Below are positions 1,585 through 35,100 of a DNA stretch of 64,000 nt, piece after piece. Position 1 is the stretch's first letter. Every line of letters begins with the position of its first letter. The translations under genes and the position numbers were made by a program. The notes below the pieces were generated by a model, which had not been told where the DNA came from, made no database searches, and was given only the letters and a program-made list of their open reading frames with translations. The stretch comes from Mytilus galloprovincialis (taxonomy: Eukaryota > Mollusca > Bivalvia > Mytilida > Mytilidae): contig NC_134843.1 in assembly GCF_965363235.1 (NCBI RefSeq), positions 89,437,795-89,501,794 on the forward strand. The letters are read 5' to 3'.

Positions 1585-1795
1585 ACTAAGGATTAATTTT
1601 TCTTATCCCAGGCATAGATTACCTTAGCGGTATTTGGTACAACTTTTTGGAATTTTGGATCCTCAATGCTCTTTATCTTTGTACTTGTTTGACTTTATAA
1701 CGTTTTTGATATGAGTGTCACTGATGAGTCTTATGTAGGCGAAATGCGCGTCTGGCGTACTAAATTATAATCCTGGTACCTTTGATATTAAATAC
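1585..1795 (+). repeat. Mussel hammerhead-bearing repeat, family H1, copy 1
   Basis: About 210 bp beginning with ACTAAGGATT and ending with CCTGGTACCTTTGATA. The same order of blocks (CTTATCCCAGGC, CTTTTTGGAATT, TCAATGCTC, CACTGATGAGTCTTATG, CCTGGTACC) returns at 8144-8335 and in part at 33985-34065, so it is an interspersed repeat. I recognise it as very common in mussel sequences. The 3' half holds a hammerhead ribozyme fold, listed separately. Confidence 0.75.
1713..1760 (+). ncRNA. Type I hammerhead ribozyme motif (H1 copy 1)
   Basis: All core parts are in order: stem I 5' strand 1713-1720, core CTGATGA 1721-1727, stem II 1728-1740 (GTCT/AGGC around a 5-nt loop), GAAA 1741-1744, a very short stem III, the GTC cleavage triplet ending at 1752, and stem I 3' strand 1753-1760. 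Stem I pairs TGGCGTAC with GAGTGTCA at seven of eight positions counting wobbles. Predicted cleavage is after 1752. Stem III is only about 3 bp with a 2-nt loop, as in the minimal hammerheads of animal retroelements, which often work as dimers. Confidence 0.7.
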
Positions 1796-2985
1796 AAAAA
1801 AAAAGTCTTTTTTTTGCAGTATAGCTGTAGGACATATGAGATAGTCATAGTAGAGTAGAGCAGTGCATGTGTCCCTATAAAAGTTGCCTTTTTATGCCGA
1901 CTTTTGCTCCTTTCTGAAACATATATTTTTAAATATAAAGCTTATCTGCTTCTATAAAAGTTATTTTGATACTGTAACATTCAGCATATTTAAGAATTTT
2001 AACAGAACACACAAAAGAAAAAAAATATGTGCTTCTTTAATACTTATAGTACATATATTATTGATAAAAAACATCTTCATTTTTCATTTCTCTTTTATAA
2101 AAAATAAAGGAAATATACCATATATTCTTCTTCTCTTTTTCACTGAATCTGAAAACAGGATGACAGAAGTCATATGCAGTCCCTTCTCCATAGGAAAATC
2201 AAAATTATTTAAGTTCTGAAAATTATGAAGAATGAAGCCTTCTTTCTTATTAAATTGATTTTGTGATTATGTTAAGAAATAACTCATAGTCAGGAATTTA
2301 ACTCTCAAGATCTCAGGGACTACTGACAATCAGATCTTTTCATGTTGTACTGTTCAATTCAATAGCAATCATTTGTTGTTTTGTAAAATTACTTTTTAGC
2401 TTACCAACCCTGAAGGTGACTTTGAATCAATTAGCAATGTTGTGCGTCCATCAGTAGTTGCAGATCCAGAAATTTTAAGAAAAAGTGGGGGAGAGGGGGG
2501 AAGGGGGTGACTACCAAAGAGGCGGTCGCTCCAGTCATGTTTTAGTGATTCGTTTACAGAAGGGGGACAGGGTTGTCTTTTTTCATATTTTCTATTGAAT
2601 AACTTCAATCCTACTGATACCAGATCTATATAAATAAAGTGTTACTATTAATCCATCTTTTTTCCCCTGAAGAAGGTTGGTGGAGGAGCCAGTCAGTTTA
2701 TGAATCATTATCAGACTCTGTTAATTATGTGTTTTGGTATATCTTATATTTAATATGCTACATATTTAAAGACAGTAGTTTATAAGAAGATAAAGCAGTA
2801 TGACATTTCAATAGATGATATGTTCATTCAAATGTAAAACAGTGTTTACTTTGAAATTGCTTGACTCATATTGTTATTGGTTTAGTTAGACTTGTTTTAT
2901 ATCTATTGGTGTGTTTAACACTGTTAACAAGGCATTTAAAGATTGTTTACTGCATAAGCAACATTAGATAGAAATACATTTGTTT

Positions 2986-3230
2986 CATATATATATATAT
3001 ATATTTATATATACAACTCGTCTAAACATCAACCCAACAATGTTAGATCTGTAAATTTGCTTTCGCAAATTTTTGGTTCTTCCCTCGCCGGGATTCGAAC
3101 CCATGCTACTGTGATATCGTGCACTGCAGCCGTCCCGCTAGACCACACGACCACCTGGGCTCTCGTAAAAAGAGCTTTCGCTGGCTGGGTGTTACCTTTC
3201 CTCGTCAGTTTTAATCTATATATATATATT
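2986..3230 (-). mobile_element. tRNA-derived SINE
   Basis: On the minus strand a tRNA-like head carries an A box TGGTCTAGCGGGA (3145-3133) and a B box GGGTTCGAATCCC (3102-3090) at normal spacing. The acceptor stem cannot be paired, so it is not a working tRNA. The head is followed by a body with ACATTGTTGGGTTGATG and AGACGAG and a (TA)n tail at 2986-3010, with a second TA run at the other edge. This layout is that of a SINE; the body resembles conserved central domains of mollusc SINEs, but I cannot name the family from sequence alone. Confidence 0.7.
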
Positions 3231-3842
3231 GAGTAAAGAAATAAGTTTAGATATTTATTTTTGTTAAACTGTGATCATATAAGATAAGTTTTTGATGATA
3301 TAAATATGTACAGCTTTAAGTGTCCGTAGGTATATTCTGTTATCTGGTAAAAGATAATTAATGTACATCCTGAACATCTATACAAACCTATCAGTTATAA
3401 TTTTTTAATTCATATACTTTTTAAAGTATTGAGTTAATCCCTGGATAAACATAACATGAAAAAAAACAAGTGATGCCACAAATGTGAAAAATGAAAATGT
3501 TCTTTTTTAGTAATGGTAACCTTGAACTTTAATGTCTTAGACCTATTGTAATTTGACCAAAATCCATAGATTATTCCCCTTCCCTATATCTTCAATCTAT
3601 AAAAGATGCACTCCTACCAAGCAAAGGGAACTCTTTATATTATAAGCACATTATCCATTAACCTAAGGATAGCAAAAGTAATCTTGAACTTTGAGTCTGA
3701 ATTTTTGACACTAACATCAATAGCTTCTTTCACTTCCCTTAGTCTGTCAAACTAATCTTATAAGCATTAGTGATTTGTCAGTGACTGACAATCATCAGTG
3801 AAATACTTTTCGATTGTTGAAATCTTGGATAAGTCAACGTTT

Positions 3843-6252
3843 TTTAGCTCACCTGTCCCGAAGGGACAAGTGAGCTTATGCCATCACTTGGCGTCCGTCG
3901 TCGTCCGTCGTCTGTCGTCGTCGTCTGTCGTCGTCGTCTGTCGTCGTAAACTATTTCAAGAATCTTCTCCTCTGAAACTACTGGGCCAAATACTTTCAAA
4001 CTTTAACTGAATGTTCCTTAGGGTATCTAATTTATAAATTGTATCCGAAGTTTTGATCTATCAACAAACATGGTCGCCATTGCTAAAAATAGAACATAGG
4101 GGTCAAATGCAGTTTTTGGCTTATAACTCAAAAACCAAAGCATTTAGAGCAAATCTGACAGGGGTAATATTGTTTATCAGGTCAAGATCTATCTGCCCTG
4201 AAATTTTCAGATGAATCAGACAACCTGTTGTTGGGTTGCTGCCCCTGAATTGGTAATTTTAAGGAAATTTTGCTGTTTTTGGTTATTATCTTGAATATTA
4301 TTATAGATAGAGATAAACTGTAAACAGGAATAATGTTCAGCAAAGTAAGATTTACAAATAAGTCAACATGACGGAAATGGTCAGTTGACCCCTTTAGGAG
4401 TTATTGCCCTTTATAGTCAATTTTTAACCATTTTTCGTAAATCTTAGTAATCTTTTACAAAAATCTTCTCCTCTGAAACTACTGGGCCAAATACTTCCAA
4501 ACTTTAACTGAATGTTTCTTAGGGTATCTAGTTTGTAAATTGTATCCGAAGTTGTGATCTATCAACAAACATGGTCGCCATTGCTAAAAATAGAACATAG
4601 GGGTCAAATGCAGTTTTTGGCTTATAACTCAAAAACCAAAGCATTTAGAGCAAATCTGACAGGAATAATATTGTTTATCAGTTCAAGATCTATCTGCCCT
4701 GAAATTTTCAGATGAATCAGACAACCTGTTGTTGGGTTACTGCCCCTGAATTGGTAATTTTAAAGAAATTTTGCTGTTTTTGGTTATTATCTTGAATATT
4801 ATTATAGATAGAGATAAACTGTAAACAGGAATAATGTTCAGCAAAGTAAGATTTACAAATAAGTCAACATGACGGAAATGGTCAGTTGACCCCTTTAGGA
4901 GTTATTGCCCTTTATAGTCAATTTTTAACCATTTTTCGTAAATCTTAGTAATCTTTTACAAAAATCTTCTCCTCTGAAACTACTGGGCCAAATACTTCCA
5001 AACTTTAACTGAATGTTTCTTAGGGTATCTAGTTTGTAAATTGTATCCGAAGTTGTGATCTATCAACAAACATGGTCGCCATTGCTAAAAATAGAACATA
5101 GGGGTCAAATGCAGTTTTTGGCTTATAACTCAAAAACCAAAGCATTTAGAGCAAATCTGACATGGAATAATATTGTTTATCAGTTCAAGATCTATCTGCC
5201 CTGAAATTTTCAGATGAATCAGACAACCTGTTGTTGGGTTACTGCCCCTGAATTGGTAATTTTAAAGAAATTTTGCTGTTTTTGGTTATTATCTTGAATA
5301 TTATTATAGATAGAGATAAACTGTAAACAGCAATAATGTTCAGCAAAGTAAGATTTACAAATAAGTCAACATGACGGAAATGGTCAGTTGACCCCTTTAG
5401 GAGTTATTGCCCTTTATAGTCAATTTTTAACCATTTTTCGTAAATCTTTGTAATCTTTTACAAAAATCTTCTCCTCTGAAACTACTGGGCCAAATACTTC
5501 CAAACTTTAACTGCATGTTTCTTAGGGTATCTAGTTTGTAAATTGTATCCGAAGTTATGATCTATCAACAAACATGGTCGCCATTGCTAAAAATAGAACA
5601 TAGGGGTCAAATGCAGTTTTTGGCTTATAACTCAAAAACCAAAGCATTTAGAGCAAATCTGACGTGGGTAATATTGTTTATCAGGTCAAGATCTATCTGC
5701 CCTGAAATTTTCAGATGAATCAGACAACCTGTTGTTGGGTTGATGCCCCTGATTTGATAATTTTAAGGAAATTTTGCTGTTTTTGTTTATTATCTTGAAT
5801 ATAATTATAGATAGAAATAAACTGTAAACAGCAATAATGTTCAGCAAAGTAAGATCTTCAATTAAGTCAATTTGACCAAAATTGTCAATTGACCCCTTAA
5901 GGAGTTATTGCCCTTTAAAGACTTTTTTCACAATTTGTTCATCATGTTGACTTACTTTAAAAAAATCTTCTCCTTTGAAACTGCTGTATCAATTTCAGCC
6001 AAAATCAGGCTAAATGAGTTTCAGAGTATCTAGTATAAATTTTATATTTTATTTCCTTGTATGTCAAGAAACATAGCTCCTATGGCTAAAATAGAACATA
6101 GGAGAAAATGATTATTTTTTTTGGCTTTTGAAGAAAATAGGACGATCCAAAAAACATTTAAATAAATTGAAAAGCCAAAATAATCATTGATGAGAGATTT
6201 AACCAAAAGAATTAAGGTGAGCGATTCAGGCTCTTGAGAGCCTCTTGTTTCA
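3843..6252 (+). mobile_element. Mollusc AGCTCACC...GCCTCTTGTTT element with internal tandem array
   Basis: Starts with AGCTCACCTGTCCC, which folds back on GGGACAAGTGAGC (3846-3875), followed by a (CGT)n-type run at about 3890-3948. Ends with GGTGAGCGATTCAGGCTC and the small palindrome GGCTCTTGAGAGCC just before CTCTTGTTT at 6250. I recognise both ends from many bivalve sequences. There is no coding capacity. The body is a tandem array of about 501 bp units, starting near 3961, 4462, 4963 and 5465, plus a diverged fifth start at 5964. A non-autonomous Helitron-like element is possible because of the 3' hairpin, but this is unproven. Confidence 0.65.
3961..5963 (+). repeat. 501-bp tandem repeat, four units
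   Basis: The block AATCTTCTCCTCTGAAACTA recurs at 3961, 4462, 4963 and 5465 (period 501-502), and a degraded copy starts at 5964. Each unit contains the same landmarks: CATGGTCGCCATTGC, CAAATGCAGTTTTTGGC, CCTGTTGTTGGGTT and GGTCAGTTGACCCCTTTA. Units two and three are nearly identical, so at least one duplication is recent. No frame is open across a unit. Confidence 0.9.
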
Positions 6253-6669
6253 TTGACTTTTAATGTAAATTTAGAAGAAATAGCTGGGAACAAATGTTTT
6301 TCTTTAGGTTCTTACTTCGTTTTGACAATCACATCATATCATTGTATGACGTCAGAGGGGTGAAACTACAGGATTAATTTCATATGTAAAATATAGTTGT
6401 TTAATTTGTCTCAGACTTTCATTGCAACAGATGTAATACACAATATACCTGTAATATAAAGAAACACATTTTCAACTTGATTTATCTCATTTAACTTGAA
6501 TAGATTTTAAATCAGTTATTCAATGTATGTTATGTGGATCTGGTACACTAATTTTAGTTTTTGATATTACTCTGTCTATTTTACTGCAAAGACTAATGAC
6601 AGAATTTTGTAGAAACAATCTTTACAGTGATGTTTAGTCTTTAGTTTTCTTTGTTGTGTCTTGTTATAA
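6253..6669. other. Intergenic, no gene seen
   Basis: AT-rich sequence between the 501-bp array element and the H2 repeat. I see no open frame with domain features, no RNA gene and no recognised repeat. Confidence 0.5.
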
Positions 6670-6875
6670 CATTAACGGTTCCAATTTTTCTGCAACAGAT
6701 GCGCATTTCAACAATACATGTCTCTTCAGTGATGCTCGTGGCCAAAATATTCGAAATCCAAAGCTTAGCTAAAAGATGAAGAGCTATAATCTAAAAGGTC
6801 CAAAAAGTTTAGCCAAATCCGTGAAAGGAATCAGAGCTTTGCATGAGGGAGTTACATTCCTTAATTTTTATAATT
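6670..6875 (-). repeat. Mussel hammerhead-bearing repeat, family H2, copy 1
   Basis: Shares TTTCTGCA.CAGATGCGCAT, CAATACATGTCTCTTCAGTG, GATGAAGAGCTATAAT, CCAAATCCGTGAAAGGAATC and GAGCTTTGCATGAGGGAG with 23700-23890 and partly with 24040-24105. The hammerhead fold lies on the minus strand. Confidence 0.7.
6692..6735 (-). ncRNA. Type I hammerhead ribozyme motif (H2 copy 1), slightly degraded
   Basis: Read on the minus strand: stem I GCATCA, core CTGAAGA (6729-6723), a stem II hairpin closed by a G-T pair, GAAA (6709-6706), short stem III TGCGCA, cleavage triplet ATC (6700-6698), and stem I 3' strand TGTTGC with one mismatch. Predicted cleavage is between 6698 and 6697. Confidence 0.55.
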
Positions 6876-6879
6876 TCTA

Positions 6880-7680
6880 AATTTAGTAGTGTTAACTATT
6901 ATTTGTCTGTCTGTCTGTTTTTTCTTTTTCTTTTTTAGCCATGTCGTTGTCAGTTTATATTCGATCTATGAGTTTAACTGTACCTCTGGTATCTTTCACC
7001 ACTCTTTTATACCTTATTTTGTTTTTGTCTATTGTATAGTAAATGATTGAAGTAACTTGATGAAAAAATATTTTAAAACATTCCTTGCCTATTTTAAATT
7101 CTCATGGTTTACCTTTAATAAATCATGTATATACATATCAGAATAAATGAAGTTAAAGTTTATTTATTATCTTTTCTATTTTGATAACATTGTTGTCAGA
7201 AATTATGTTAAACTCAGTAATTAAGTAATATATGCATGATAAAAAGAACCAACAGTAGATTTAATGAAAAATTGCTTGAATTGGAAAAAACATTTATGTT
7301 AATCTATGAATGTTGTCAGTTTATTAGTTTAACTATCCCTCTGTTACTAGTATCTTTCACCACTCTTTTGTACGTTATTTTCTTTATGTCTATTGTATAT
7401 AGTAAATGATTGACGTAACTTGGTGAAAAAATATTAACATTCTAGCCTATTTTTAATCCTCATGTTATACCTTTAATATATCATGTATATACATATCAGG
7501 ATAAATGAAGTTTATTATTTATCTTTTCTATTTTGGTAACATTATTGTCAGAGATTATCTCATACTGAGTAATAAGTTAATCTATGCATGATAAAAAAAT
7601 ATCTGTAGACTTCAAATAAAAATGCATGAACTGAAAAAAATTATCTTACCCAATCTATGACTGTTTTAAATGAATTCAAG
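6880..7680. repeat. Diverged ~355-bp tandem duplication
   Basis: Blocks ATCTTTCACCACTCTTTT (6991 and 7352), ATCATGTATATACATATCAG, TATTTATCTTTTCTATTTTG and TATGCATGATAAAAA (7231 and 7583) recur in the same order at a spacing of 352-361 bases. The left part (TTTTTAGCCATG, GTTGTCAGTTTAT, GAGTTTAACTGTACCTCTGG) belongs to a widespread mussel repeat also seen at 42120-42180 and, inverted, at 38030-38095. Confidence 0.7.
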
Positions 7681-8143
7681 AAAATTTATTCATAAGCTTT
7701 GTTTTTTTGTTTTAAGTTCTACAGTCCCTACCTAGCAAAAAACACTTGCTAAATTATTGAAAATGATAGCATAAAAATTAATTTATTTAAAAGGCTTGTG
7801 CACGTATATGAGTTTTCAGTATTGAGATATTACGTTTGCCTTACGACATTGTTTGTGTATAATTTTGGGAGTGATCAAATTATACTACATTATTTCATCA
7901 AAGAGTTTCTAGTCTTGTTTAAAAGTTATTGAATTTGAATTTGAATTTTCGTTCATTAATTCACATGCACATCTTTTTCTAAACAAAATAGTAAACAGTC
8001 CTTTAGCGTACATATGTGCTTTGTATTCTTTTTGTTGTTTTGATTCGTTCATCGTCTCTTTTCTAGGTTCTTTGTTGTCACTATATGAATGTATATCAAT
8101 TATATGGTCATTTTTAAACTGTTTGCAAAAGTATGAATTATTG

Positions 8144-8335
8144 TAAATACTAAGGATTTTCTTATCCCAGGCTGATAACCTTGGCCTTATTTGACAACTT
8201 TTTGGAATTTGTGGTCATCAATGCTCTACATTTTTGTTTGGCTTTCTTTACCTTTGGACCTGAGCGTCACTGATGAGTCTTATGAAGACGAAACACGCGT
8301 CTGGTGTATTAAATTATGAGCCTGGTACCTTTATG
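8144..8335 (+). repeat. Hammerhead-bearing repeat H1, copy 2
   Basis: Begins TACTAAGGATTTTCTTATCC and ends CCTGGTACCTTTATG. It matches 1585-1795 block by block and contains a hammerhead fold. Confidence 0.75.
8262..8309 (+). ncRNA. Type I hammerhead ribozyme motif (H1 copy 2)
   Basis: Stem I GAGCGTCA 8262-8269 with TGGTGTAT 8302-8309; core CTGATGA 8270-8276; stem II GTCT/AGAC (8277-8289) fully paired; GAAA 8290-8293; short stem III; GTC ending at 8301, the predicted cleavage site. Differences from copy 1 in stem II are compensatory (AGGC to AGAC). Confidence 0.7.
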
Positions 8336-8529
8336 TCGTTATTTTCTATTGTAATGTTAATTTGTGTATTTCTCTGTCCAGAATGTTCTTCCTTTTATTT
8401 GTATTTTAGTCATGTAATATTGTCATTTTAGTGTTATTTAATGGCATTTTTATTAACATTGCCATAAAAGCTGAAGGTTTCGCTAGCTACAAAACAGACA
8501 AGTCAGGAAAATGGCAATTGCTATCTTAT

Positions 8530-8950
8530 AAATAAAGGCAACAGTAGTATACCGCTGTTTGAAATTCATAAATCAATTGAGATAAAAAGCAAACTAAAAC
8601 TGAGGGAAATGCATCAAATATAAGAGGAGAAATACGACACAACAGAAACACAGCATTAAAATGTAACACACACAGAAACGAACTATAATATAACAATTGC
8701 CATTTTCCTTACTTGGACAGGGCATTTTAAGACAAAAAATGGTAGGCTGAACCCGGTTTTATCTTGTAGTTCGTTTCTATGTATGTTGCATTGTCGTTTG
8801 GTTTTTTGTTGCACTTTAGTGTTTCTGTGGTTTCGTTGTTTTCCTCTTATATTTGACGTGTTTCCCTCAGTTTAAGTTTTCAACCCGGATTTATTTTACT
8901 TAATCGATTTATGGCTTTCGAACAACGGTATACTACTGTTGCCTTTATTT
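8530..8950. repeat. Long inverted repeat of mussel repeat R2
   Basis: The left arm starts AATAAAGGCAACAGTAGTAT (from 8530) and runs to about 8685. The right arm (8766-8950) is its reverse complement, ending ATACTACTGTTGCCTTTATT. Arms are about 155-185 bp and diverged, separated by about 80 bp. Single-orientation relatives lie at 31255-31455 and 40915-41640, so this is an interspersed family that here exists as a head-to-head pair. Confidence 0.8.
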
Positions 8951-9185
8951 AGAGAAATGAAGTATAGTAATACCAAGTACTTAATAATTTACCTGAAGGC
9001 AGGATTTTTGCTGAACTATCATATTTTCTAGCGAGAAATGAGAAATGAGTTTTGTATCGTTTTCGTGTATTTTTAACAAAACAATTATAAGAAGACATAA
9101 ATACACCTATGTTAATTTATGATCACATTAGTACTCATGCATGATAAACCGTTACAATAGGAAGTATCCAAGATACATGTTGAAA
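8951..9185. other. 3' flank of HSPA12-like gene
   Basis: AT-rich, holding the presumed 3' untranslated part of the minus-strand HSPA12-like gene. I find no clear AATAAA on the minus strand within about 180 bases of the stop. Confidence 0.4.
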
Positions 9186-14727: not shown

Positions 14728-14891
14728 CTAGAAATGAAAAAAGATAAAATCATAAATGATAAAAGAAAGCTGTTGCATTATCTTACTCGTGCTTGCGCGT
14801 TTGCTTTCTATTGAACTGGTATGTTATAGTTAAACTGATTTTCTGAACTGTATGTTTTCATTAAACATTCGTCTTCCTTGAAGTAAAAGAT

Positions 14892-14925: not shown

Positions 14926-14946
14926 CAGAGTCTTCAAAAACTAGTT

Positions 14947-21439: not shown

Positions 21440-22150
21440 GTTTTTTATCATGTGTACAGGTACACAGAGAAACAAGTAGTCAGTATGCTTAAGTTTCTTA
21501 TTGACAAAATATTTGTTGAATTTGGAGGTTCAATTTTTTAACAAATTATCGGCATTCCTATCGGCACGAGCGGTATGCCTCTCCTTGCCGACCTATTCTT
21601 ATTTTCATATGAATCGGAGTTCCTTCAGACACTTGTAAAAAAGAAACCAGGTCATTTAACTTCTTATTCAAATATATGTTGTTCTTTCCATTCTTTCAAA
21701 CTTTTCTGATGTGTTCCATTAATATATCCCCAGAACAAGAAATGAAGGAAACAACAGACACAGCTTCTTATGCCTTATTCTTAAACTAATATCTCGAATA
21801 TACACGGTCATCTCAGTTCCAGAATCTATGACAAACGAGACGATTTAATTTTGAAATTATCAATTGCCCACACCATAGTAGCAATATACCAGCTTCACCT
21901 TCATATGGGTTAAACATTTCCCAACTTATTCGGCATTGAAGAGCCTGATGCTCCTACTCAGTCTTTGTGAAACGTCACCGGTGTCTGAGCAGAAGGTTGA
22001 TGAACCAGAAGTATATCGAAGAAGTTTATCGGAAGGTCCCAAGACCTTGTTGATAAATATTCAGTATCAACATCACAAATAATACATGATGGTCTTGAAG
22101 TATAGATTCTGGATACTGACGTTATTTACCATCTAATTAATTTGTATTTA
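21440..22150 (+). mobile_element. Penelope-like retroelement remnant
   Basis: Plus-strand translation shows pieces of a reverse transcriptase typical of Penelope-like elements: a GIPxGT..PLLADLFLFSYE block near 21550-21615, a YDKRDDFN block near 21825, and a SNIPASP / NISQLIRH run near 21870-21935. The copy is old and broken in several places and covers only part of the family's RT. Sequence to about 22600 (GATATCCATTTGACTTGGC, TTATACATCCCGCCAG) may be its 3' non-coding tail. Penelope-like elements are known to carry hammerhead ribozymes in their terminal repeats, which fits the hammerhead repeats nearby. Confidence 0.6.
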
Positions 22151-22609
22151 TATTCTTTTTTAAAATGTCTTCATGGATATTACTTTTCATGTTGAGTCTG
22201 TTTTTGGTGATATCCATTTGACTTGGCTCTGTACTTCGCCATCTTTCCAATGTTATTTTTCTATGATGATTTTTGTAAACTTGTTTTTGATATCTGTTAA
22301 TCTGCTTTGTATGTACACCTTTTTGTGTTTCTTTGTTATATATGGCTTGGCTATGTAGTTATACATCCCGCCAGTGTGTTATTGCGCTATGGTACATTTT
22401 TGTATTCTTGTCTTTCATTTTTGATAATGTGCTATGTTTAAATGCCTTTTTTATGTTCTTTGTTTCATATTTGTTTTTTAGTGATTAAAATTATACCACA
22501 TTATTGACTTCTGTACCCCTATTTTTGACATTTTCCACTATTGTGTCTAGTTATTTTGTTCACACATCGTTGTCAATATATAATGGACTTTTATGCGACT
22601 GTCCTTCAA

Positions 22610-22800
22610 GTGAAAAGTTTAACTAGCTAAATCAGGTTTTTGCCACAATTTCTACATAAGAATATGCCGGACACAGGTAAAGAATATCCCAGTTGTTATC
22701 CGTTTGTTTGATGTGTTTGAGCTTTTGATTTTGCCATTTGATTAGAGACTTTCCGTTTTGAATTTTCCTCGGAGTTCAGATTTTTGTAATTTTACTTTTT
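22610..22800 (+). repeat. Interspersed repeat TGATGTGTTTGAGC
   Basis: TTTGATGTGTTTGAGCTTTT, GATTTTGCCATTTGATTAG and TTTTCCTCGGAGTTC return at 44690-44765 with the same spacing. Confidence 0.6.
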
Positions 22801-23021
22801 ATACTCTTTTCAATTAAAAATACGTTTTATCAATACGTGCTCCCATAAAGCCAGGAGCTCTGAAAGGGTTCGCACATATTTTTTACTTCAAAAACAAATC
22901 AGTAAACATAGTAAAAAATCAGCTAAAATAAAATTACCTAATAGGAAAGGGAACCAAATCAGAACTTATACATAAGTTGGCATTTGAAATCAATAAGAAT
23001 ATAAACCAAATAGATCTTTTT

Positions 23022-23027
23022 TTTATT
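23022..23027 (-). promoter_or_regulatory. Putative polyadenylation signal of the acyl-CoA synthetase gene
   Basis: AATAAA on the minus strand 152 bases beyond the stop codon at 23180. Confidence 0.4.
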
Positions 23028-23179
23028 GCACTCTGTTTCCTTGTAGAATAACTAAATAATTAATATACAATATACAGTTTTATAGTGATATAATTGAGAC
23101 TGATATAGCAAATTACTATAATTGCAGTCCCGTTAGATAATCTAGTAACATACTACAAATTGTATTCTAAACATCATTT

Positions 23180-26100
23180 TCAATAAGAACTTTTTAAAAA
23201 ATCTTGTCTTAGAGTACGTCTAAGTATTTTTCCACTCGGTGTTTTTGGAATAGCTTCTGTAAATCGAATTCCTCCCCTAAACAACTTAAAGTCGGCAACA
23301 TGATCTACAAAGGAACCACATTAAGTTTTTTTTTTCAAATGAAGCTATGCAATTTCATCTATAGTTCATCTAAACGTGCATGCATTATGTGAAAACAGAT
23401 TTCCGAATAAACTGCATCTTTTTAAACAGAACCCAAGGTTTTCCAAATCATGAAATAATCTCTTCAAGATGACACTGCTTTTAACATGAAAGTTACATAG
23501 GAAACAGAAATTAATTGGTGTCTCACGCTAAAGTGCGATCGTTGTTTGTTTGCTAAAGTATGATGGTCTATCATGCTAAAGTGCGATGCACCAAAAGGGC
23601 TTAAAACTTTTAAAAACACGGATGTTAATAAATATTCTTTTTGCAAAAGCTAGTATGCTAAGGTTTTATAACATATGTGATAGGCTGTAATAACAATAAC
23701 GGTACCATTTTTTCTGCACCAGATGCGCATTTCGACAATAAATGTCTCTTCAGTGATGCTCGTGGCTAAAATATGTGAAATCCAAAGCTTATATAAAAGA
23801 TGAAGAGCTATAATCCAAAAGTTCCAAAAAGTATAGCCAAATCCGTGAAAGGAATCAGAGCTTTGCATGAGGGAGATACATTCCTTAATTTATAATAATT
23901 TCTAACATTTTGTAACAGCAAATTTTAATGAAACAAAAAATCTGTATTTTCATGCCAGTACCGGAGGACTGGCTACTGGGCTAGTGATACCCTCGGGGAC
24001 TAACAGTCCACCAGCAAAGGCATCGACCCAGTGGTAGTAATAACAATAACGGTTCCATTTTTTCTGCACCATATGCGCATTTCGACAATACATGTCTCTC
24101 AAATGTATCGGCAGGCTTAAGTCATTGTTTCTGAATTGAAAAGACCGACCACGTGATTATTGTTAAAATGGTAACTTAGGTGTGATAACAAATTATATAT
24201 CCTGTGTATGATTTTTTTTTAAATTCGGGCGTATCACATATTTTGATAATTAGTGTAGCTTATTGTTTACATGTAGTCTATCCCTTAAGTGAACATCTCC
24301 CTTTAAAGTCGTCAACGAAAATTACAAATACAAAATTCGTTCATTGTGTAACATTTATTTGTTTAAATCTTAGTTAAAATGAGGGAGAAATGCAATAATC
24401 TCCTAGCTTTCTCCTTTTCAGCAGCGAGTACAAATACAGGTTGTATTTTCCTACAAGGTACAAAATAATGTTTTAGCGGACAATTTATGATTTCGCATGA
24501 AAACATGTACCTTTATTTTACCGACTTTTATTTTCAATAAATTGACGATATTTTAACGGGGACCGCAAAGTAAACTACAATATAAACAATGATTGCAATG
24601 TATCCGTTAGGTTCTAATAGAAACAAAACAAAGGATACCTATGCTTATAATTTTGCATCTTTATAGTAAAATGGTCGACTGCAGGACACAAGTCCTTCTT
24701 CCAGCATCCGAAAAAAAAACAACATTTGCCTTAGCCGACAAATAGATATAGGAAGATGTGGTGTGAGTGCCAATCAGACAACTCTCCATCCAAATAACAA
24801 TTTATAAAAAAGCATTGTTAGGTTTAGATTAAGTAAGTCATGGACATTTGGTTTAAAATTGTTAATCAAATATTCTACATTTATCTTTCGGCATGTTCAT
24901 TTTTTTTGAGTGTATAAACGACTGTTCCCGTCATAATCCATAGTACGTTTATTTCGTCTATACATTCGCGGACCATCGCACTCTTGCATGTGTAAGCATC
25001 GCACTTTAGCGTATACCATCGCACTTTAGCGTGACCATCGTACTTTAGCGTCCCCATCGCACTTTTGAGTCCTACATATATATGTGCAAAAAATAACTGA
25101 TTATGGGTATGAACGTATATATTAAGAACAAGAGTTTTATTTAGTTGAGCATGTTCATTAAAATTCTTAAATCAGAATTAATTGTACGAAAATGAAATAT
25201 GTTAGTTGTTCTTAGTGTCGTTCCTATGTCGTGCTGTTATACTACAATCAATGATAGGGAAAGGTTTAACACTTGTCATCATTTTAAATTAGACATTGGC
25301 TATTAGAGGAGACATTTATAGTTTTGTCACTCGCTGAAGTAAACTGCTCCCTTCCACAAAAAGAAACCCCACTCGAAATACAGTCTGTCAAAATCTTGTG
25401 GGTGTATGCTATCTGCCATTATAAGTTTCATGACATTTTCCCGTCCTAGATTAAATCTGGCATTTCAAGTGGATTTATTTCTTTCTGATGGATTCATATT
25501 TTCATAGTAGGTCCTTTTCAGTACAGAGTTTTTAACAAGTATTACTTTTGTTTACTCGCAAGGAGTGATACCACCATTGGTTTCCCCCTATTAAATCTTA
25601 CTAAATTTACATTTCTCAAAAACTTGTGCAAAATTTATCTTTGTTTTGAATAAGTTTCAGATAAAACTTCACTGCATATTACTTACAAGTAATAAACATT
25701 ACAAGTTTGAAGTAAATTATTCAGAATTGATGTTCAGCTCTTTTTTCTTTCGTACAAGTTTTAAACCCATGTTATATCAAGTTTCCAAAATATTCCATAG
25801 AAACAAAATAAAAAATAAAAACCATCTCCGAGAAATGTCCTTCACCGAAAAAATCGTTAATTATTCATTTACCAGATAGATGGGATCGCCTGTTTCTATG
25901 CACTTTCAACGTTCATCAATCGCCTAAGTGATCATTTTGTGCAGGATAAACTAGAATTAATGTTTGTTACGTATGAACTTATTCTAATGACAGCCGGGCT
26001 GATTGTCAATGAAAAGAATTTAATTTGCCGAATAATTCGTTTTATATAGCATCATATTTTTCCAACCACTCGCTCAATATTATTACGTAAGTGGCAATGC

Positions 26101-29100
26101 CCCTAAACGCCCGAATGCTGTTCACTAAAAGTTGAGTTTTGAAGGAAATGAATCGAACTCAAAAGTTGTATTTTGTTTCTTTGAAACATCAATTAAAGAT
26201 ATATGTTTTTGACTTTGACAAAACTATTTGTTCTTCAAAGAAATCATGCAGGGTTCATTTCGTACTACTGTCAAATCCAAGGGAATATTATATTTTTTTG
26301 TCCTAGTTTTTCGTATGAAACCGGATATGTCGCGCTATGATTTGGTGGTATTACACCTTGAAGATTCAACTACATTTCGCGAAGTACTACGAGTTTATGA
26401 GCCTCGGTATTCGCTTGGAAGCTGTTTTTACGATGGCATGTTGTTGTTAACAGCCAAGTCCGTTGGTGGATAATTGACTTGTTGGTTATCATACCACAAC
26501 TATCTTCTTTACAGTAAGATCTAACAAAGAAGTCTTGATAAAAAGAAACACTATGTTAAAATATTGATATTATACCTTTCATGAACCTCCGTATTTGGTC
26601 TTCTTCAACATGACAATTTGGTTTTCGCACTACATATGCTCTCGGTACCTCTCCAGATCTTTCATCAGGAATACCTATTACAGCTGCATCCTGAACTTCG
26701 GGATGCTTTAATAAAACGTCTTCCAGTTCAGCAGGAGCAATCTAATATCAATGAACTATTACTACTTATTAAAGAAATATATTCTCTATAAAATCTCGCT
26801 GTTGCTTCACACGTTAAGATAGTCTGTAAGATAAATTCGTTACATAGTGTGCTAGTGACGTAATACGGTATATATTGGGTCAGTAAATTCCATATGGAAT
26901 TTTCTGACCCCATATATATCGTATTAGGTCACTAGCACACTATGTAACTTATATTATTTGATATTCAGATACATTTGATCAAATCCTAAATGTACAAAAA
27001 AATTATAAAAATCCGAATAATAAGCTTCCCAAATAATTATTGCTTAAAACAGAACAGCAAAGTTGTATAATAGTATCAAACAACAGCACCTTTTGCCGAA
27101 GAAGATATGTCCTAGTGAAAGAAAAAATAAAGTATGTTATGCATAATCTTCTAAATGACTATTTCCTAATCTTGATGAATTTCAACAGGTTAAAATTAGA
27201 TGCGTAACAGTTTCCAAAACATGCCATAAAGTCATTTTTCTGGACAATTATACTAACAATACTTGTCGAATACGATGCTGTCATTGAACTGTGGTCGCCA
27301 GAGGTCATTTGCTATTTTTCCGCTGCGCATGCGACATTGAAGAGGAAACCAAAGATTTAATGGTCGGAATAACTGTTACCGTATGAATTGTTGCAGCATA
27401 ATTAAGCACTATAAAATCTTACTGAACGTGTCAGATTTAGTACAAATAGAGTATGATATACATATATCGTCAACATGTCCTTGTCATAAAGTGCATGCAA
27501 TATTTGCCTCTGGACTTTTAACACCAAAACATCAACCCATGATAATTAAGACTTATATATGTTGACGAAACTTGTAAATAGACTTTATTGTCGGCCACGG
27601 AATAAGGCTTTCGTTGTTCCCCAAAACGCCAAACTTTAAATAGTAATTAATGCTATGCATTGACTGATGGTATTCATATGTGCAGGTTTCATCATAAAGT
27701 AGGTGAGAAAAAATGAAAATCAAATGCAAAACATCCTTTATAAATGTTATGCGCGTCCAAAACGTTTTTTTGGATTTACCTTTATATAGAACGTTCAAAG
27801 CCAAATATTTGAAAACCTAGGATGTACAAGGAATAAAAGAGTTAGCTAGCTATATAACCAAAAAAGACCTTAAAGTGATAGGCAAATTGATCCAATATCA
27901 ACTTTGTCTGATTGTTTGATACCTTAGTTTCTTTCTTAATAATTAATAAATTCATAAACGGACAATTCAAAAATCGCATAAGGGTTCATCTGTTGGTGAA
28001 CAACGAATCATAATTTTAAGGAATTGTTTCAGGACTATTCCTTTTACTTGTAAAAGCTTATATATTTTATTAGATCCTTAGAACCTCGGTCACACATTAA
28101 CGGATAGCTCGAATGGATGCCTAACGAATAACTTTTTTCAATCCGTTCATGTCCGTTAGACGTCCGTTCTTATCCGTTAGACGTCCGTCCATATCTGTTG
28201 CATGTCCGTTTAGCGTTTGTTTTATCCGTCGACGTCCGTTCTGTCCGGTGGAATATTTTGAGCATGTTCAAAACTTTGAACGGACATCCAACGGATAAAA
28301 AGTCCTTTGAACGTTCGGTATGCGTCCGTTTTGTACAGAGTTCGTCCTTTTCGTTTCCGTTATACATCGGTTGGAGGTCTGGCAGATAAATTCACCGACG
28401 GACTTCTAGCGGATAAAACGAATGTTGAACGAATGTGAAACGGACTTCTACCGGATGTATAACGGATAAAACGGATGATGAACGGATTGGTCCGAATACA
28501 CAGTTATTGTCCTTTGATATTCGTTGTCCGGGACAAATATAGTCCCTAGTGTGGACAGTTTGTTACTTGTCAATTTTTGTAAACCCCTTCCAAATTTATT
28601 TTTTCATGTTTTATACCTTAAATAGCAAGTAGGGGGATGAAATTACACTGTAAATAAATTTGGGTCATGAATTTGAAAGTCAAGTAGTGATTTGGTCCAG
28701 CTAAAAAACGTTACAAAATAGCATTTCTGAAGCTGTCAAAAGATTTCAAGACCCCTTAACATAAAATTGTCCATATTTTGAGTTAGAGCTGATGAAGTTT
28801 TCTATAATTTTAATTTGTTTGTCCCAAAAGTACTACAACATACTGTGAAAATATTTTTTAGAAAGCGCAGGTGGGATTTTTTTTAATTTTTCATTTATTG
28901 TCTAAAGAAAATGCACTACGAAATGACTGTGGTCTTGGACCTGCCAATTGAAAATTTCGCGTCAGAAATGCCAATTAGATTTCTTAAAGTTCATGAATTC
29001 TTATTATTCATAATTGATCTTAGAGTAAGGGCACGTCTTCACAATCAAGCTCGTATTCAGGCCAGACAGTGCCCTTTGGTGACATTTTAAAGAACAAACC

Positions 29101-32100
29101 AAAACCAGTTACACAGAAACATTTTAAATATTCATACGATTTACATGACTTATTATTGTCGCTTTTAATTTTTCCGTATATCTTGTTCATCCGTTTTATC
29201 CAGTACGCTTCCGTTATGGGTCCGTTTTATGCCGTAATAGTCCGTTGGATGTACGTTCGGCATCCGTCCTGTCCGGCACGTTTCCTTTTCTCGTACGTTG
29301 CATATCCATTGCGAGTTCGTTATGCATTCGTTATGCGTCCGTTTTATTTGGTCAATATATCAACGGACTCCCTACGGATAACAATTTTGTCAACGGACAA
29401 CTTTTATTTTCCTCTGTTAGTCGTCTGTTCGTGCTATCCGGTAAGTTTTGACCGAGGATTTACTCTTGTAAAAAAAGTGGCATAAAGACGAAGCACAAAT
29501 TAATAAAAAATGAATGGTTACAAAATGACCACAGCACAACAACACATTAGTGAAATGCATAGGTAATGAACTACACTAAAAGGATATTTCCAACTATGAA
29601 CTAAACAGTAAAGATGAATAGTTTACAAAGGCAAACAAAAGAACACTATAACACGTAATTAACATGACAAAAAAAACGCCAAAGCCTAACATCAAAAGAT
29701 AATAATGTAGCATTCGCGAAGTTGATGCGAAATATTAACCAACAAGGCTTTGGTAATAAGCGCTTCTGTGTTGACATGATTATTATTGATATTGTCATAG
29801 TTATAATTTACCGGCACCAGGGGCGGTTAGATTAACATTAACCCTGGCGTAGAATTGCGCGTTTGACGACATACAGGTAGATTTAAAAATAATTGTGTCG
29901 ATAGAACATCATTAATATATCTGAATGTGAAATTAAATGATCTCGCATCTTTGATCCTCTGTTTTGACAAGTGTCTGAATGAACTTTGACTCATATAAAA
30001 ATAAGAAAAAGTCGACAAGAAGAGGCAAACAATTCGTTTTCACAGGAATGCCGACAACTTGTTGATACAGTCTACCTCCGAATTCAATAAATATGTTGTC
30101 AATAAGAATTTCAATATCCTAGTCACTTGTATTTTTTGTGTTGCAAGTTTTACCTTTTTGTTCACTATTAACAAGGTATGCCGTCTGGTATACCAAAATA
30201 ATAAATTGATAGCATATGCTTTGTATAGAAAATCATTCATGAACATTGTGAATTATTTTCTTATAGAATATTTCTATAATTTCACATAGGGATTGGTGGT
30301 ACAGGGTTGAAAAAGATCAAACGTTTTGACAGAATTGATTTATGAGAAAGATCGTAATTAAAAACTATCTAGAGGGTTTTTTTCAGAATTCACATATGGC
30401 ATTACCACTACGCGAAGAAACAGTTTCACATTATTACTGAAAACCTCTTTTACTTTTTGTCTATCTAATAGACAGTTCATTTGTAGAACACACATATTAG
30501 CCGGCAATGTACCTTGGTTGTTCGTAATGTTGTGAAGTCCATGTATCAAATACAAACAAGTTAATAAAACTTTTCCCTTTACATCTTTGTACCTGAAAAG
30601 CCTTATATTTGATCAGGTCTTTTACTCTATCTGTTATAACCACGTTACCATCTTTTCTTATATAACCGATATCCCCTAAACATAAGAGACAGAAAACGTA
30701 TGTCATTATGAATAAATAGAAGCAAGCAATGCATGGATACATAAATGATTGTTCGCTTGTATGATCTATATCAATAGTTAATACGGCCGACGTTGACACA
30801 GAAAAACCACTCGCATAAGACTGTTACTTTTAGGCTAAGAGTCGATTCAGTAAAACAAAGATGTTAAGATTACAAGATATTCTCAAACTCATAATTATTT
30901 GGTGTACCAGTGCTATATTTGACTTTATTAAGTTAAGATTTGATGAACTTTGCATTGGTTTGACCTGGTATCATCTTTATTGTTAAAGAGACATCTTACA
31001 TGCTAAATTGATATTGCATACTCTAGCAGTTGAATTAAAAGAGGACTCCAAACATATACAACATAAATTATCAAGCTTGAATGAGTCTAATTATATAAAT
31101 CTTCATTTGCTAATTCAATAAATATTTTCATAGATTATCAAAACCGCTACGTGCAAAAGACTAAGTGAAAATAACAGGAACTTGTAGCCTGTGATTTTTT
31201 TTTTCTATTTTTTTTTTCTTTTCTTTTAATATTTGTTACCAAGTTAGGAATATGGCAGTTGATATTAAATAGTTCGTTTCTATGTATGTTTAATTGGCGT
31301 TTGATTTTGTTGCACTTCAGTGTTTCTGTTGTTCCGTTGTTTCCTACGTATGGTTGATGCGTTTCTCTCGGTTTTAGTTTGAAACCCGGATTTGTTTTCT
31401 CTTTAATCGATTTAAGACTGTTGAACGGTGCTATACTATGATACTACTGTTGCCAAATTATGACGTCTTGAAAGGCTATTACAATACTCACCTGTGTGTA
31501 TCCAACCTTCTTTGACAATCTCATTTGTAGCCTCTTGGTTGTGTAAATATCCTTTCATTAACTGTGGTCCCTTATGGCATATCTCACCTGATTCGCCAAC
31601 ATTTGTGATTAAGTTGGTAGTTCCTGGGTGAACTATCTTAGAAAATCAAAGTCATTAGTTTAATGTTTGATTTTTTTCTCGGAATATATTCTGTTGTATT
31701 TAGTGTATAAAACAGTTGCATTGAGTGAAGACTTTATACTTCATAGCCTAATAATTAGACTCATTTGTATATCTGTGAAAGTAATCGGTATAAATTTCTC
31801 TGTTTCTTTTTCTTATGCAGATATGACTAACTGTGATATATCCACAGTCTGTATTGAATGTTGAAAAACTGTAAAATTAGGTTTGAATTTCCATAGAGTT
31901 AACCTCCGTTTACGTTTGGCCGTAACAATTTCGTGAAAGAAAAAACCATGTTTTATTGTACTTTCTCCAGCAAAACAGAGGACAAGGAGACATTTTCACG
32001 TTCTCAAAATTGGAGGAATATATGACATAGCCCTCTTAAGTTCTCACTGTTGTTAATTTGTAGTTTAAAATGATAAAGTATACCATCCATATAATGGTGT

Positions 32101-35100
32101 TTATAACCTTACACACTTTCTTATAATATCACTTTGAAGAGTAAAATCACTGCTAACCCTATTTTCCGGCTTGTTAAAACATGTCCTATGTTTCTTCCCA
32201 ATACGTCTCATGAATATTTGACCATTATTGCATACACGCGAACTAAATGTAAAATTAATATCTCTTACTTATATACAAGAAGACTAACCGAAATAAAAGG
32301 TTTGCAAATGGCAAATAAATGAAATGTCAGTAAATTAGCAAGAGAAAGTGAATATAAAGTATAAAAACCAAACGAGACGATTCCTAGTACCCCGAAGAAT
32401 AAAGGACAAGAATGTCAACATCTGTATATTACTGTTGGACTTTCAACAGTATACTTTAAACCAATGTATTTTCGCGAATATTTTATTTCGTGTTTAGCCC
32501 GTTTAAGACGTGAAAATCTCAAAAATAAGTTGGTTTACAGTAGTTGACATAAGTTTGCACTATTGTATCAAAACCTTTGACCATGTTTTATATTTTTACC
32601 ATGTAAGAGAGCTATATAAGCAATGAAGATTTAAAATGCCAATATTCAAACATATCTAACATCAATCATGTTTAACTGAATTACAAATAGGGTTTATAAA
32701 ATTCAAATCGAATATGTTACCTTGCACAAAGTATTGGGTACTGGTTTTCCTACTGTGCCGATGTTTGATGGAATTTCATCACAAAGGGCAGCTGGTCCAA
32801 ATTCAGTCATGCCATAACCTGAAACACCATCATCAACATCATCGTCAAAATCTCATTTCACTATGGTTAATAATTTTACAATATAAATTGTAATTCCGGT
32901 AGACAGCTTCTTAATTCATCATTGAAACATTGTAGTTTACAGGGTTATCAATCTTTTAAAAAAAAATTCTAAAACAGTTCAACATAAAGAAAATGTACTG
33001 TTTTGATAAATTATAAGTGTGTTTTCATATTTTCTTTGTAATATTGACAAACATTCGCAAATAATAAAATAATAAAAAATCAAAACCAATTACACTACAA
33101 GTTATTACATTTGAATACCTTGAAATAAATTTATATTTAACTTTGACACAAATTCTTCATGAACAGTTTCGCCAAGGGGTGCAGCGCCACATATGGCTCT
33201 TTGAACTCTGGATAAGTTGAAATCATTCACCATTGGATGTTTAACCATGAAAACTGCCATTGGTGGTACCAAATGAAGGAGTGATATCTAAACAAATACG
33301 AAAAAGTGAAATGTACATAATTGGTTTTCATTGTTAGTTATCAATTTTATTTAGCCATGTAAGTGACCAAAATGTTTTAAACAAACATGCGATTCTGAAA
33401 CTGATATAATTGAACACGTTCAATGTCTTTTAATTTTTCAGCAATTTAAAAATATTTTGAAATGTCTGTAAACATGTTAAAAGAATGAAATAATGCCTTT
33501 ACCTTTTCATTTTGAATTGCTTGAAGAAATAAACCTGGATCAAACCTAGGAAGTGTCACCAGTTTATTACCACCAGCAAAAGCGTAGTATGTTAAGACAG
33601 TTATGCCATATACATGGAACATTGGTAAAACTGCAAGAAAGCTATCATCAGGAGTCGTTTGCAGTGCACAACTGCAATAATAATAAGTGTCGTTAAATGG
33701 ACTTTCAAATCATTGTACTGCATTCTTGGAACATATATTTTTTAAACATAATTGAAATCAAACAAATTGCTCAACATTTCTTATGTTGTTAATATACAAA
33801 AATATGTTTACCCACAATTTGTCAGATTTTGAAAATTTTATAACAGGACAAGACGTATAATGTCGGTGTAATTGTCAATTAAAAGACAGGCGAAAGATAC
33901 CAAAGGTACAAATACCTAACCTAAGTCATATTTGAAAATTTGAAATATGAGAGCAGAAACATATCAGAAGTCTACTACTATAACCCTTTTTTTGGATTCC
34001 AGCGTCACTGATGAGTTTTTGTGGACGAAGCGCGCGTCTGGCGTAAGTACATAATGTTGCCCTGGTGTCTGTGGTGAGTTTTTGTTACTAGAGGACCTGT
34101 GAACAGAGTTAAACATTGGCGCACGTACCTATCACATAACTCAAAAATATATTAATAAACGAGTGCCTTATTTCAAGTATAGAATATTTTACATTGAATA
34201 TATATATAGACGGTTAAAATTAAAAATCCTCGAATCAATGAATGAAAAAAATCGCTTTTAAATACGTCAACAGAAGGAGAAAAATAAACCTTAGTTGTTG
34301 AAGGTTTGCAACCAGACACCGATGATTCAACATAACTGCCTTTGGGAATCCTGTGGTTCCACTGGAAAACGGCAAGACAACGATATCGTTTTCACAATCA
34401 ACTTGTAGATCTTCAGGGAAAGCAGTGCCATCATCTTCCATTAATGTATTTATAGATTTGTAACCGGACACGTGACCCAGAGTGATGATATCCTACATGA
34501 AGAAAAAGAAATGCTATTTTTTTTCTTCATTAATTATAATGTAGTGTAGTCACCTTCTCTCTATTTAACATATGGATTTCAATATTTATTTAGACTCTTG
34601 ACTTTCTAACTTGTAGTTATTAAAATCATAGACTGATCAAAATCATTTACACAAAACTTATAAAACTTCAGATATCTATTTATTATTTTTGTATCGGTTG
34701 ATTTCTATCTAGTAGGTGTTTTTTATACATATTTAAATATTAATTGTCTCTGGGAGATGAATGTCATCTGTCGCAACATATCAATACAATGCCAATTTCA
34801 ACAGAGATTATATAATATGACAATTACAGATATGATCTCAATGAAGCATATTTAGGTAACAGGTACGTAAGAAGGAAAGATGTTCCAGAAATTTTGCCTT
34901 TTCGTTTGATATATAAATATCATATATATATTTAATTATATTCATGCGGAATGTATAAAAAATTTATAACTCGTGTTTAGAATTTGATCAAAATGGAAAT
35001 ATTGCAAACAAAAATCAATGATTTGAACGTTACGATACCTTGATGTTGGTCTGTATTTTAACATTGATTCTAAATGCCTCCATCACTATAGGTAAAAGTG

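Follow-up and report, generated by a model that had tools for sequence, protein, structure and literature searches.

Retrozymes and hammerhead-bearing Penelope-like elements

Non-LTR retrozymes have been described in Mytilus galloprovincialis as two families of similar sequence with type I hammerhead ribozymes (Cervera and de la Pena, 2020; PMC7229834), and a similar relation between type I families is seen here. They are reported there as low-GC tandem repeats of about 350–390 bp in thousands of copies; compared by this description, the elements analysed here are alike. For mussel elements of the same size both circular RNA and self-cleavage have been published (PMC7229834). Against the two published families, at least three standard families (H1, H2 and H3) and a hammerhead-like one (H4) were found here. 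The additions to the known story are a shared domain of about 90 nt with compensatory changes, a fixed 3′ end, scattered 5′ ends and H4; the shared domain and fixed 3′ end are described for the elements here and not in the sections of PMC7229834 consulted. Metazoan non-LTR retrozymes in general are low-GC tandem repeats of about 150–450 bp, ranging from dimers to multimers, that hold a single hammerhead in each unit and encode no protein; their circular RNAs are joined at the cut, and any target duplications exceed 4 bp.

Plant LTR retrozymes resemble those here in being non-autonomous and in forming RNA circles by means of their hammerheads. They differ in having type III hammerheads, LTRs, a primer-binding site and 4-bp target duplications (PMC7229834). 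According to a 2020 review, the repeats of animal retrozymes hold no conserved motif from which an autonomous partner could be deduced (PMC7761336).

The Penelope-like element Poseidon of Anolis (PAc; PMC11167929) can be likened to the retrozymes here by its features, not by sequence homology. It carries a hammerhead and has tandem or partly tandem genomic copies, as here. Its reverse transcription starts inside the RNA, in a stem-loop 3′ of the hammerhead, and its genomic 3′ ends lie at the start sites, of which two adjacent ones are reported; the arrangement here is similar. The commonest distance between start and cut is about 85–92 nt in PAc (calculated from a cut at +26 and starts at +111–118; PMC11167929) versus 35–41 nt here, and PAc encodes a reverse transcriptase with a GIY-YIG endonuclease, whereas the retrozyme units here have no long frame.

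Hammerhead sites in the window

The window is the whole 64,000-nt stretch of M. galloprovincialis DNA that was analysed. The first-pass annotation had claimed six hammerhead sites in it. A covariance model (R1) built from 31 hammerhead sequences, with the window's own copies left out, returned exactly these six at E ≤ 1 (E 2e-16 to 2e-6):

1715–1758, plus strand: H1 type I hammerhead; R1 61.7 bits; full core; 7 Watson-Crick and 5 G.U pairs; predicted cut between 1752 and 1753
6692–6735, minus strand: H2 hammerhead; R1 58.5 bits; full core; a single U.U mismatch in stem I
8264–8307, plus strand: hammerhead in an H1-type copy; R1 58.0 bits; full core; 12/12 pairs (9 Watson-Crick, 3 G.U); predicted cut between 8301 and 8302
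23716–23759, minus strand: H2 hammerhead, apparently intact; R1 69.6 bits; predicted cut between 23722 and 23721
24066–24109, minus strand: H2 hammerhead remnant; R1 32.1 bits; 5′-truncated, CTGANGA half gone
34002–34044, plus strand: H3 hammerhead; R1 51.2 bits; GAAG, that is, G at position 15.1

Judged from their sequence, the sites at 1715, 8264 and 23716 look intact, that at 6692 is weakened by its mismatch and that at 34002 is probably impaired by the G at 15.1. The remnant at 24066 is presumably not functional because its CTGANGA half is missing. The shared CTGANGA...GAAA core claimed earlier for all six sites therefore holds for four of them, 34002 (GAAG) and the truncated 24066 being the exceptions; at 6692 the pairing of stem I is interrupted by the U.U mismatch. 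All type I features (CUGANGA...GAAA...NUH core, three stems, open end at stem I) were found at four of the six sites. A loose core pattern was counted six times in the window, where 0.39 would be expected; none of 100 shuffles reached six.

With the Rfam model RF00163 (gathering score 34) two of the six window sites were listed, both under that score (8264, 27.4; 34002, 26.3), and the other four were absent from the matches even at E ≤ 10. Genome-wide, the best 74 of 224653 candidates gave 66 matches at E ≤ 1; 29 of these 66 exceeded the gathering score, versus none of the six window sites.

The earlier description as minimal hammerheads of the Penelope-like kind does not suit the motifs here: stem III has 2–3 bp, stem II 4 bp and stem I 6 bp, and they lie within retrozyme repeats. 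Among 74 distinct hammerhead sequences covariation was seen in all three stems and 95.5% of 888 cells were paired; RNAalifold recovered stem II alone on the 44-nt hammerhead, and covariation was counted on the named structure instead. Together with the R1 matches, this covariation supports the proposal that these are type I hammerheads whose fold is under selection. The claimed difference between H1 and H2 at nearly all paired bases was overstated, since of the 12 pairs in the reference motifs seven are the same, four are changed on both sides and one on one side.

That tandem dimers would be needed for efficient cleavage is doubtful. A published mussel repeat self-cleaves as cloned, with a kobs of about 0.1 per min (PMC7229834), and a review passage gives monomer self-cleavage for most invertebrate type I motifs, yet adds that a weak helix III prevents it in many cases. 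No two intact hammerheads stand in tandem at the window's H1–H3 loci, and release of a circle by double cutting should therefore not be expected from them.

Retrozyme families, units and arrays

The copies that surround these hammerheads, and a further family, are as follows:

1543–1787, plus strand: H1 retrozyme copy; single 5′-truncated lap, unit positions 109–347
6663–6888, minus strand: H2 retrozyme copy; single truncated lap, unit positions 123–350
8089–8332, plus strand: H1-type retrozyme copy; single truncated lap, 80% identical to H1
23687–24099, minus strand: H2 retrozyme array of 1.2 units
24036–23687, minus strand: full 350-bp unit of the H2 array
24099–24037, minus strand: 63-nt 5′-truncated piece of the H2 array, preceding the full unit
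33987–34085, plus strand: H3 retrozyme remnant of about 100 nt, boundaries approximate
48440–49030, minus strand: H4 family, degenerate tandem copy of a repeat of about 350 bp

The H1 copy at 1543–1787 stops just before the expected place of the structured domain described below. The hammerhead at 34002 had been read as a member of H1; this was dropped after family searches placed it in a third family, H3. A search with the H3 remnant gave 40 rows; leaving the self match aside, the other 39 start at query positions 7–29 and end at 120–131. The H4 core is hammerhead-like, with stems that differ from those of H1–H3, an unusual stem II and A.A at 10.1/11.1.

The reference units measure 353 bp (H1) and 350 bp (H2). 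Start-to-start spacing is 351–358 bp in H1, with up to 17 matches in a row at 354 bp, about 349–352 bp in H2 and 366 bp in H3 (one array, three matches). GC content was 0.380 over one H1 and one H2 unit. The longest ATG frames in these two units, each set head to tail, were 34 and 72 aa, and no frame above 72 aa that could encode a reverse transcriptase with GIY-YIG was found in them. Units are more alike within than between arrays (H1, 0.973 v 0.929, 12 arrays; H2, 0.967 v 0.952, 8 arrays), and one fetched piece carries seven identical units. Single-lap dispersed copies make up 30 of the 49 kept H1 insertions.

Tandem units of about 350–366 bp, each holding one hammerhead and lacking a long reading frame, taken with the published circular RNA and self-cleavage work on mussels, strongly support the earlier suggestion that the repeats are retrozymes, with H1, H2 and H3 as genomic copies of mussel non-LTR retrozymes whose anatomy matches the published ones by description. 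The copies in the window are broken ones, of a kind already known from mussels.

A structured RNA domain shared between families

A structured domain is common to H1 and H2 and is present also in H3 (loci L001 and L024) and H4. Its copies in the window are:

23948–24037, minus strand: structured RNA domain with a nested long stem and an 8-bp hairpin, directly 3′ of the units' insertion end point
48453–48541, minus strand: structured domain of the second H4 unit; 49.5 bits, E 3.3e-10
48774–48863, minus strand: structured domain of the first H4 unit; 33.8 bits, E 2.9e-6

The domain spans about 90 nt with 31 pairs; 95.8% of cells are paired and four pairs are changed on both sides. Its GC content is 0.556 versus 0.319 for the rest of the unit. 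No tRNA gene was detected in two loci searched for a tRNA-like domain, and the domain's sequence string had no match in a literature search.

Fixed 3′ ends and scattered 5′ ends

Loci entered the sample through long matches or matches that include a hammerhead, and the best candidates alone were scored, which would miss copies of about 40 nt that start at the cut as well as single-lap copies that end before the hammerhead. The sample comprises 88 unique arrays, a number somewhat inflated by likely segmental duplicates (L070 and L075, each occurring twice, and the pairs L087/L088 and L048/L059); 77 of the 88 end at unit positions 338–353. This fixed end lies 35–41 nt 3′ of the ribozyme cut and abuts the structured domain on its 5′ side. 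The other 11 arrays end elsewhere, and several of them are fragments, nested insertions or chain breaks. The copy at 8089–8332 was excluded from the 88 for its low identity. Of 30 further chains outside the 88 (identity <85%), 19 end at the fixed point and 11 do not; two of these 11, L006 and L077, stop no more than 5 nt from the cut.

Of the 88 arrays, 36 lie in loci retrieved with RF00163, a query in which no end of the element is included, and 29 of these 36 have the fixed end. The 3′ limits of rows in the H1 and H3 searches were excluded from this evidence because these queries are themselves insertions that stop there. By eye, the H3 copies in L001, L024, L093 and at 34002 in the window stop just short of the domain's place, and H4 apparently follows the same rule.

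None of the 88 arrays has its 3′ end within 5 nt of the cut. The fixed end lies beyond the cut, and therefore the RNA that was reverse transcribed was probably uncut, either circular or multimeric, with copying begun internally, which has been reported in vitro for a Penelope-like element. A shared internal end point of genomic copies, placed 3′ of the hammerhead and beside a structured domain, is a Penelope-like trait.

The 5′ ends of 72 kept insertions did not differ from a uniform distribution (KS p 0.40, n = 49; p 0.12, n = 23). Target duplications of ≥5 bp were counted in 13 of 63 insertions versus 3.6 expected and of ≥6 bp in 9 of 63 versus 1.15 expected; with flexible boundaries the latter became 8 of 63 versus 7.1 expected. 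With no excess at flexible boundaries, most insertions are taken to lack a clear target duplication.

Search for an autonomous partner

At least 147 matches to GIY-YIG, among the best 150 of 1001 candidates, were obtained, with open frames of up to 911 aa. Four pieces from two families were compared with the retrozymes, L092, L094 and L095 for family A and L093 for family B. The structured domain was not found in these four pieces, and the H1, H2 and H3 units matched them solely at an H3 copy in L093. This copy, some 1.2 kb downstream of the open frame of family B, was treated as incidental because H3 is dispersed. In family A 31 of 48 rows reach the query's last three bases, inside a TA repeat, and in family B 41 of 44 rows extend as far as the final query base; the rows thus do not show the true end of either family. 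A tail or domain shared with autonomous elements was not seen in L092–L095, and no partner is named.

Discussion

The best explanation of the whole, to which we give a probability of about 0.73, is that these are mussel non-LTR retrozymes on whose structured domain a reverse transcriptase docks, starts internally and runs laps. Retrozyme transcripts would self-cleave and become circularised, as others have shown for M. galloprovincialis. The reverse transcriptase would dock on the domain in circular or uncut multimeric RNA. From a nicked target it would begin copying just 5′ of this domain and continue for one or more laps until it falls off and leaves a 5′-truncated array. Penelope-like enzymes, for which internal starts downstream of a hammerhead have been reported, are the likeliest candidates; this is the weakest step of the model. 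Insertion in vitro by PAc was unaffected in hammerhead mutants and its start site is farther from the cut than the end point here (PMC11167929), both of which count against the model.

Fixed 3′ ends with variable 5′ truncation are typical of LINE and SINE insertion. They would fit equally well if a LINE-type enzyme copied from a true RNA 3′ end, made by a host nuclease or by termination just 5′ of the domain. The position of the end, at the edge of a structured domain like a processing site, is also in keeping with this reading, which we nevertheless regard as unlikely: no tRNA gene was detected in the two loci, and a second cut should give subunit pieces, whereas the main published RNAs are unit-length circles and linear RNAs (PMC7229834).

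We consider it quite improbable that the elements are SINE-like, with an RNA polymerase III promoter in the domain and the hammerhead secondary. The GC-richness of the domain speaks for a promoter, as does the GGGTCGATGCC that it holds, which we take to resemble a B box; against it stand the lack of a tRNA match in the two loci and the report that retrozymes seem promoterless (PMC7761336).

Tandem arrays of very similar units would also suit a satellite DNA spread by unequal crossing-over or by reinsertion of extrachromosomal circular DNA, the hammerhead being a passenger. Reinserted circles predict random break points, and the one 3′ end shared by 77 of the 88 arrays already disfavours this origin; many copies are dispersed single laps and the stems are conserved by compensatory change, which leaves it very improbable indeed. 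Chance hammerhead-like strings, for which the low or missing Rfam scores of the six sites might speak, are refuted by R1, the shuffles, the 29 genomic matches over the Rfam score and the covariation of the stems.

Under the preferred reading of internal initiation at the docking domain, a more specific proposal is that retrozymes carry a dedicated module of about 90 nt for docking and start of a Penelope-type reverse transcriptase, with multi-lap copying of circles that begins at the module's 5′ edge; four families or more, H4 among them, would have retained it. This proposal is tentative and we would put it somewhat below even odds. If it is true, metazoan retrozymes would possess the conserved motif that they are said to lack, and this motif would name the enzyme class. 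A fixed internal 3′ end beside a covarying domain, in several families, is such a motif. It bears on how animal retrozymes insert and by whose enzyme, and opens a direct assay with one protein, one 350-nt RNA and one start site to map.

The six hammerheads

The window, at C6:89437795-89501794 of a 1.38-Gb genome in 331 contigs, was searched with R1, a hammerhead covariance model built from 31 sequences with those of the window excluded. In the window R1 returned the six sites proposed in the first-pass annotation and no others at E ≤ 1, with coordinates shifted by a few bases (about ten, on one side, for the site at 24066). By start, these are:

1715, plus strand: full core, 12 of 12 stem pairs Watson-Crick or G.U
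6692, minus strand: single U.U, in stem I
8264, plus strand: full core, 12 of 12 stem pairs Watson-Crick or G.U
23716, minus strand: full core, 12 of 12 stem pairs Watson-Crick or G.U
24066, minus strand: CTGANGA half absent
34002, plus strand: GAAG instead of GAAA

The catalytic core said to be common to all six is thus complete at 1715, 6692, 8264 and 23716, altered at 34002 and incomplete at 24066. The assignment of 34002 to family H1 had to be abandoned, and this copy is placed in a further retrozyme family, H3. RF00163, the hammerhead model of Rfam, is less sensitive here than R1; it found two of the six sites, both below its gathering score, and at least 66 matches genome-wide, 29 of them above that score (among the best 74 of 224653 candidates scored). 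The sole H1-H3 tandem locus of the window, 23687–24099, combines an intact ribozyme with a truncated one, and therefore circle release by two cuts would not be expected from any H1-H3 locus of the window.

For covariation, copies were collected by alignment to a unit, pairing not being required. The 171 distinct units gave 152 without motif insertions, 149 of them also gap-free, and hence 74 distinct 44-mers (four from the window). In these, 95.5% of 888 stem cells are paired, compared with 85.3% after shuffling. Covariation scores 0.348, which none of 500 shuffles reached, vs 0.179 for the shuffles. Neither pairs changed on both sides (5 vs 4.2; 95 of 500 shuffles reach 5) nor further pair types (15 vs 14.5; 240 of 500 reach 15) exceeded the shuffles. 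Stems I and II had been noted to change together between copies. Between H1 and H2, both sides differ in four pairs, of which stem II holds two and stems I and III one each; one sequence adds a fifth. Because the copies are related, these double changes are mainly between-family events and not 74 independent ones.

Retrozyme units and a shared structured domain

The units read, 5' to 3', a structured domain of about 90 nt, an AT-rich body, the hammerhead, and a tail of 35–41 nt past the predicted cleavage point (cut). Matches are spaced 351–358 bp in H1 and about 349–352 bp in H2 (reference units 353 and 350 bp), and 366 bp in H3 (window 34002; locus L093), of which one array with three matches was found. 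Similarity between H1 and H2 spans the whole unit (domain 81%, body 66%, hammerhead 72%, tail 59%; about 50% for a shuffled body control). The domain is also present in the H3 copies of L001 and L024 (E 5.5e-12 and 3e-12).

The predicted fold of the domain comprises a long nested stem plus a hairpin of 8 bp. In an alignment of 32 sequences, hand-picked among 70 distinct ones with length variants excluded, 95.8% of 992 cells are paired and four pairs show both-sided change. Covariation is 0.146, a value attained by none of 500 shuffles, which give 0.088; slid versions give no more than 0.061. Because the structure was taken as the minimum-energy fold of a single H1 sequence, the comparison with slid versions is biased in its favour. 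Among the same 32 sequences, neither double-change pairs (295 of 500 shuffles have as many) nor additional pair types (482 of 500) outnumbered those of the shuffles. RNAalifold gave 25 pairs, with the inner stem and hairpin identical and the outer stem shifted.

R2, a model of this domain, also matched the minus strand of the window at 48453–48541 and 48774–48863, within a fourth tandem family, H4 (repeat of about 350 bp, 106 rows). Its window locus and other repeats are:

48440–49030, minus strand: H4, domain and hammerhead-like core
50720–51591: 75-bp tandem array
51547–52896: 182-nt inverted pair, 94% complementary, with weak microRNA matches
59977–60601: 34/37-bp tandem array

The H4 core reads GCGUUC-CUGAUGA-AGG..CCA-GAAA-..-GGACGC, with stems I and III pairable; an A.A occupies what we take to be the place of the conserved 10.1-11.1 pair, usually the first of stem II. 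H4 was not detected in the R1 search. The exact core pattern occurs 899 times genome-wide vs 0 for the reversed control, and ten sequences among the matches listed are all identical. The window copies are degenerate. Eighteen of the 106 rows end at query positions 158–167, just before the domain, and are read as array ends; another 18 end at 461, within the second query unit's hammerhead, where the query has diverged.

Elsewhere in the window, 27766–27845 resembles the H4 body (68%), and 3934–5968 holds about four copies, 86–99% alike, of a 501-bp tandem repeat. A SECIS-like element at 61438–61500 (plus strand; AUGA, UGAU and a CUAAACC stretch) may mark a selenoprotein 3' UTR; at 32.7 bits it falls below the gathering score, 35.

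Insertion ends

Chains of unit matches (145, from 91 loci and the window) were reduced by 30 with a unit below 85% identity and by 12 at a locus edge; the remaining 103 represent 88 unique arrays. In 77 of these the 3' end lies at unit positions 338–353, as it does in 29 of the 36 arrays from loci found with RF00163, a query that contains no element end; the seven exceptions (L003, L008, L018, L023 and three in L030) are mostly fragments or nested insertions. The cut falls at position 312 in H1 and 315 in H2, and none of the 88 arrays has its 3' end within 5 nt of it. Among the low-identity chains, 19 of 30 have their 3' end at 338–353, and two (L006 and L077) have it within 5 nt of the cut.

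The 5' ends were analysed in 72 arrays (16 of the 88 dropped), a set that is no test of the 3' end because arrays were kept only with a 3' end at or beyond position 335. They do not depart from uniformity (KS p 0.40 and 0.12), and the two that fall no more than 5 nt from the cut are close to expectation. Copies of roughly 40 nt starting at the cut would have escaped retrieval. This polarity, fixed at 3' and ragged at 5', is that of target-primed reverse transcription. Since the fixed 3' end lies 35–41 nt past the cut, the usual template was probably not a linear monomer ending there but a circular RNA, a religated one or an uncut multimer.

With flexible boundaries, target duplications showed little excess (mean longest match 3.93 vs 3.58; ≥5 bp in 26 of 63 vs 18.9; ≥6 bp in 8 of 63 vs 7.1). 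A stricter test held the 5' boundary within 3 nt, allowed tail overlap and took its expectation from flank swaps between arrays; nine of the 72 arrays lacked an anchor, leaving 63. At least 5 bp were then common in 13 of 63 vs 3.6 expected, and at least 6 bp in 9 of 63 vs 1.15. Short duplications therefore accompany a minority of insertions, with none visible in most. In L019 an H2 array has inserted into an H1 unit. It is flanked by ATAGATTAC on one side and CTTAGCC on the other, both from the H1 body, and no target bases appear to have been lost.

Units are more alike within arrays than between them (H1, 0.973 vs 0.929, 12 arrays; H2, 0.967 vs 0.952, 8 arrays), and the seven full units of L091 are identical in an array of 17 matches at 354-bp spacing. 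This is consistent with several laps round one circle, and also with later homogenisation.

A possible Penelope-like partner and published systems

GIY-YIG frames are abundant in the genome (at least 147 matches among the best 150 of 1001 candidates scored), and of three fragments, two had the GIY-YIG domain confirmed by Pfam. Pieces of two GIY-YIG families, whose 3' ends lie beyond the pieces, held no structured domain, and one H3 copy was the only retrozyme sequence; the Penelope assignment is therefore based on analogy of anatomy, by which a Penelope-like enzyme may serve the retrozymes. By eye, a hammerhead-like motif with a very short stem III was seen at L092:440-490 and L094:390-440, in the 3' region of a GIY-YIG family running into a TA repeat, and a hammerhead-like string with an extra core base and complementary flanks at L093:560-625, 3' of a GIY-YIG frame of about 900 aa.

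For a Penelope-like element, Frangieh et al. (2024; PMC11167929) showed that reverse transcription begins at internal sites of the RNA that lie 3' of the hammerhead, and that genomic ends coincide with these start sites. Cervera and de la Pena (2020; PMC7229834) reported some 5000 type I hammerheads for M. galloprovincialis; these form two similar families and are usually found in repeats of 350–390 bp. Self-cleavage proceeded at about 0.1 per min, and circles were abundant. In searches of open-licence full text we found no retrozyme paper mapping such ends or such a domain. The six hammerheads are real and belong to elements of a known kind; what this analysis adds is the map of insertion ends and the shared domain.
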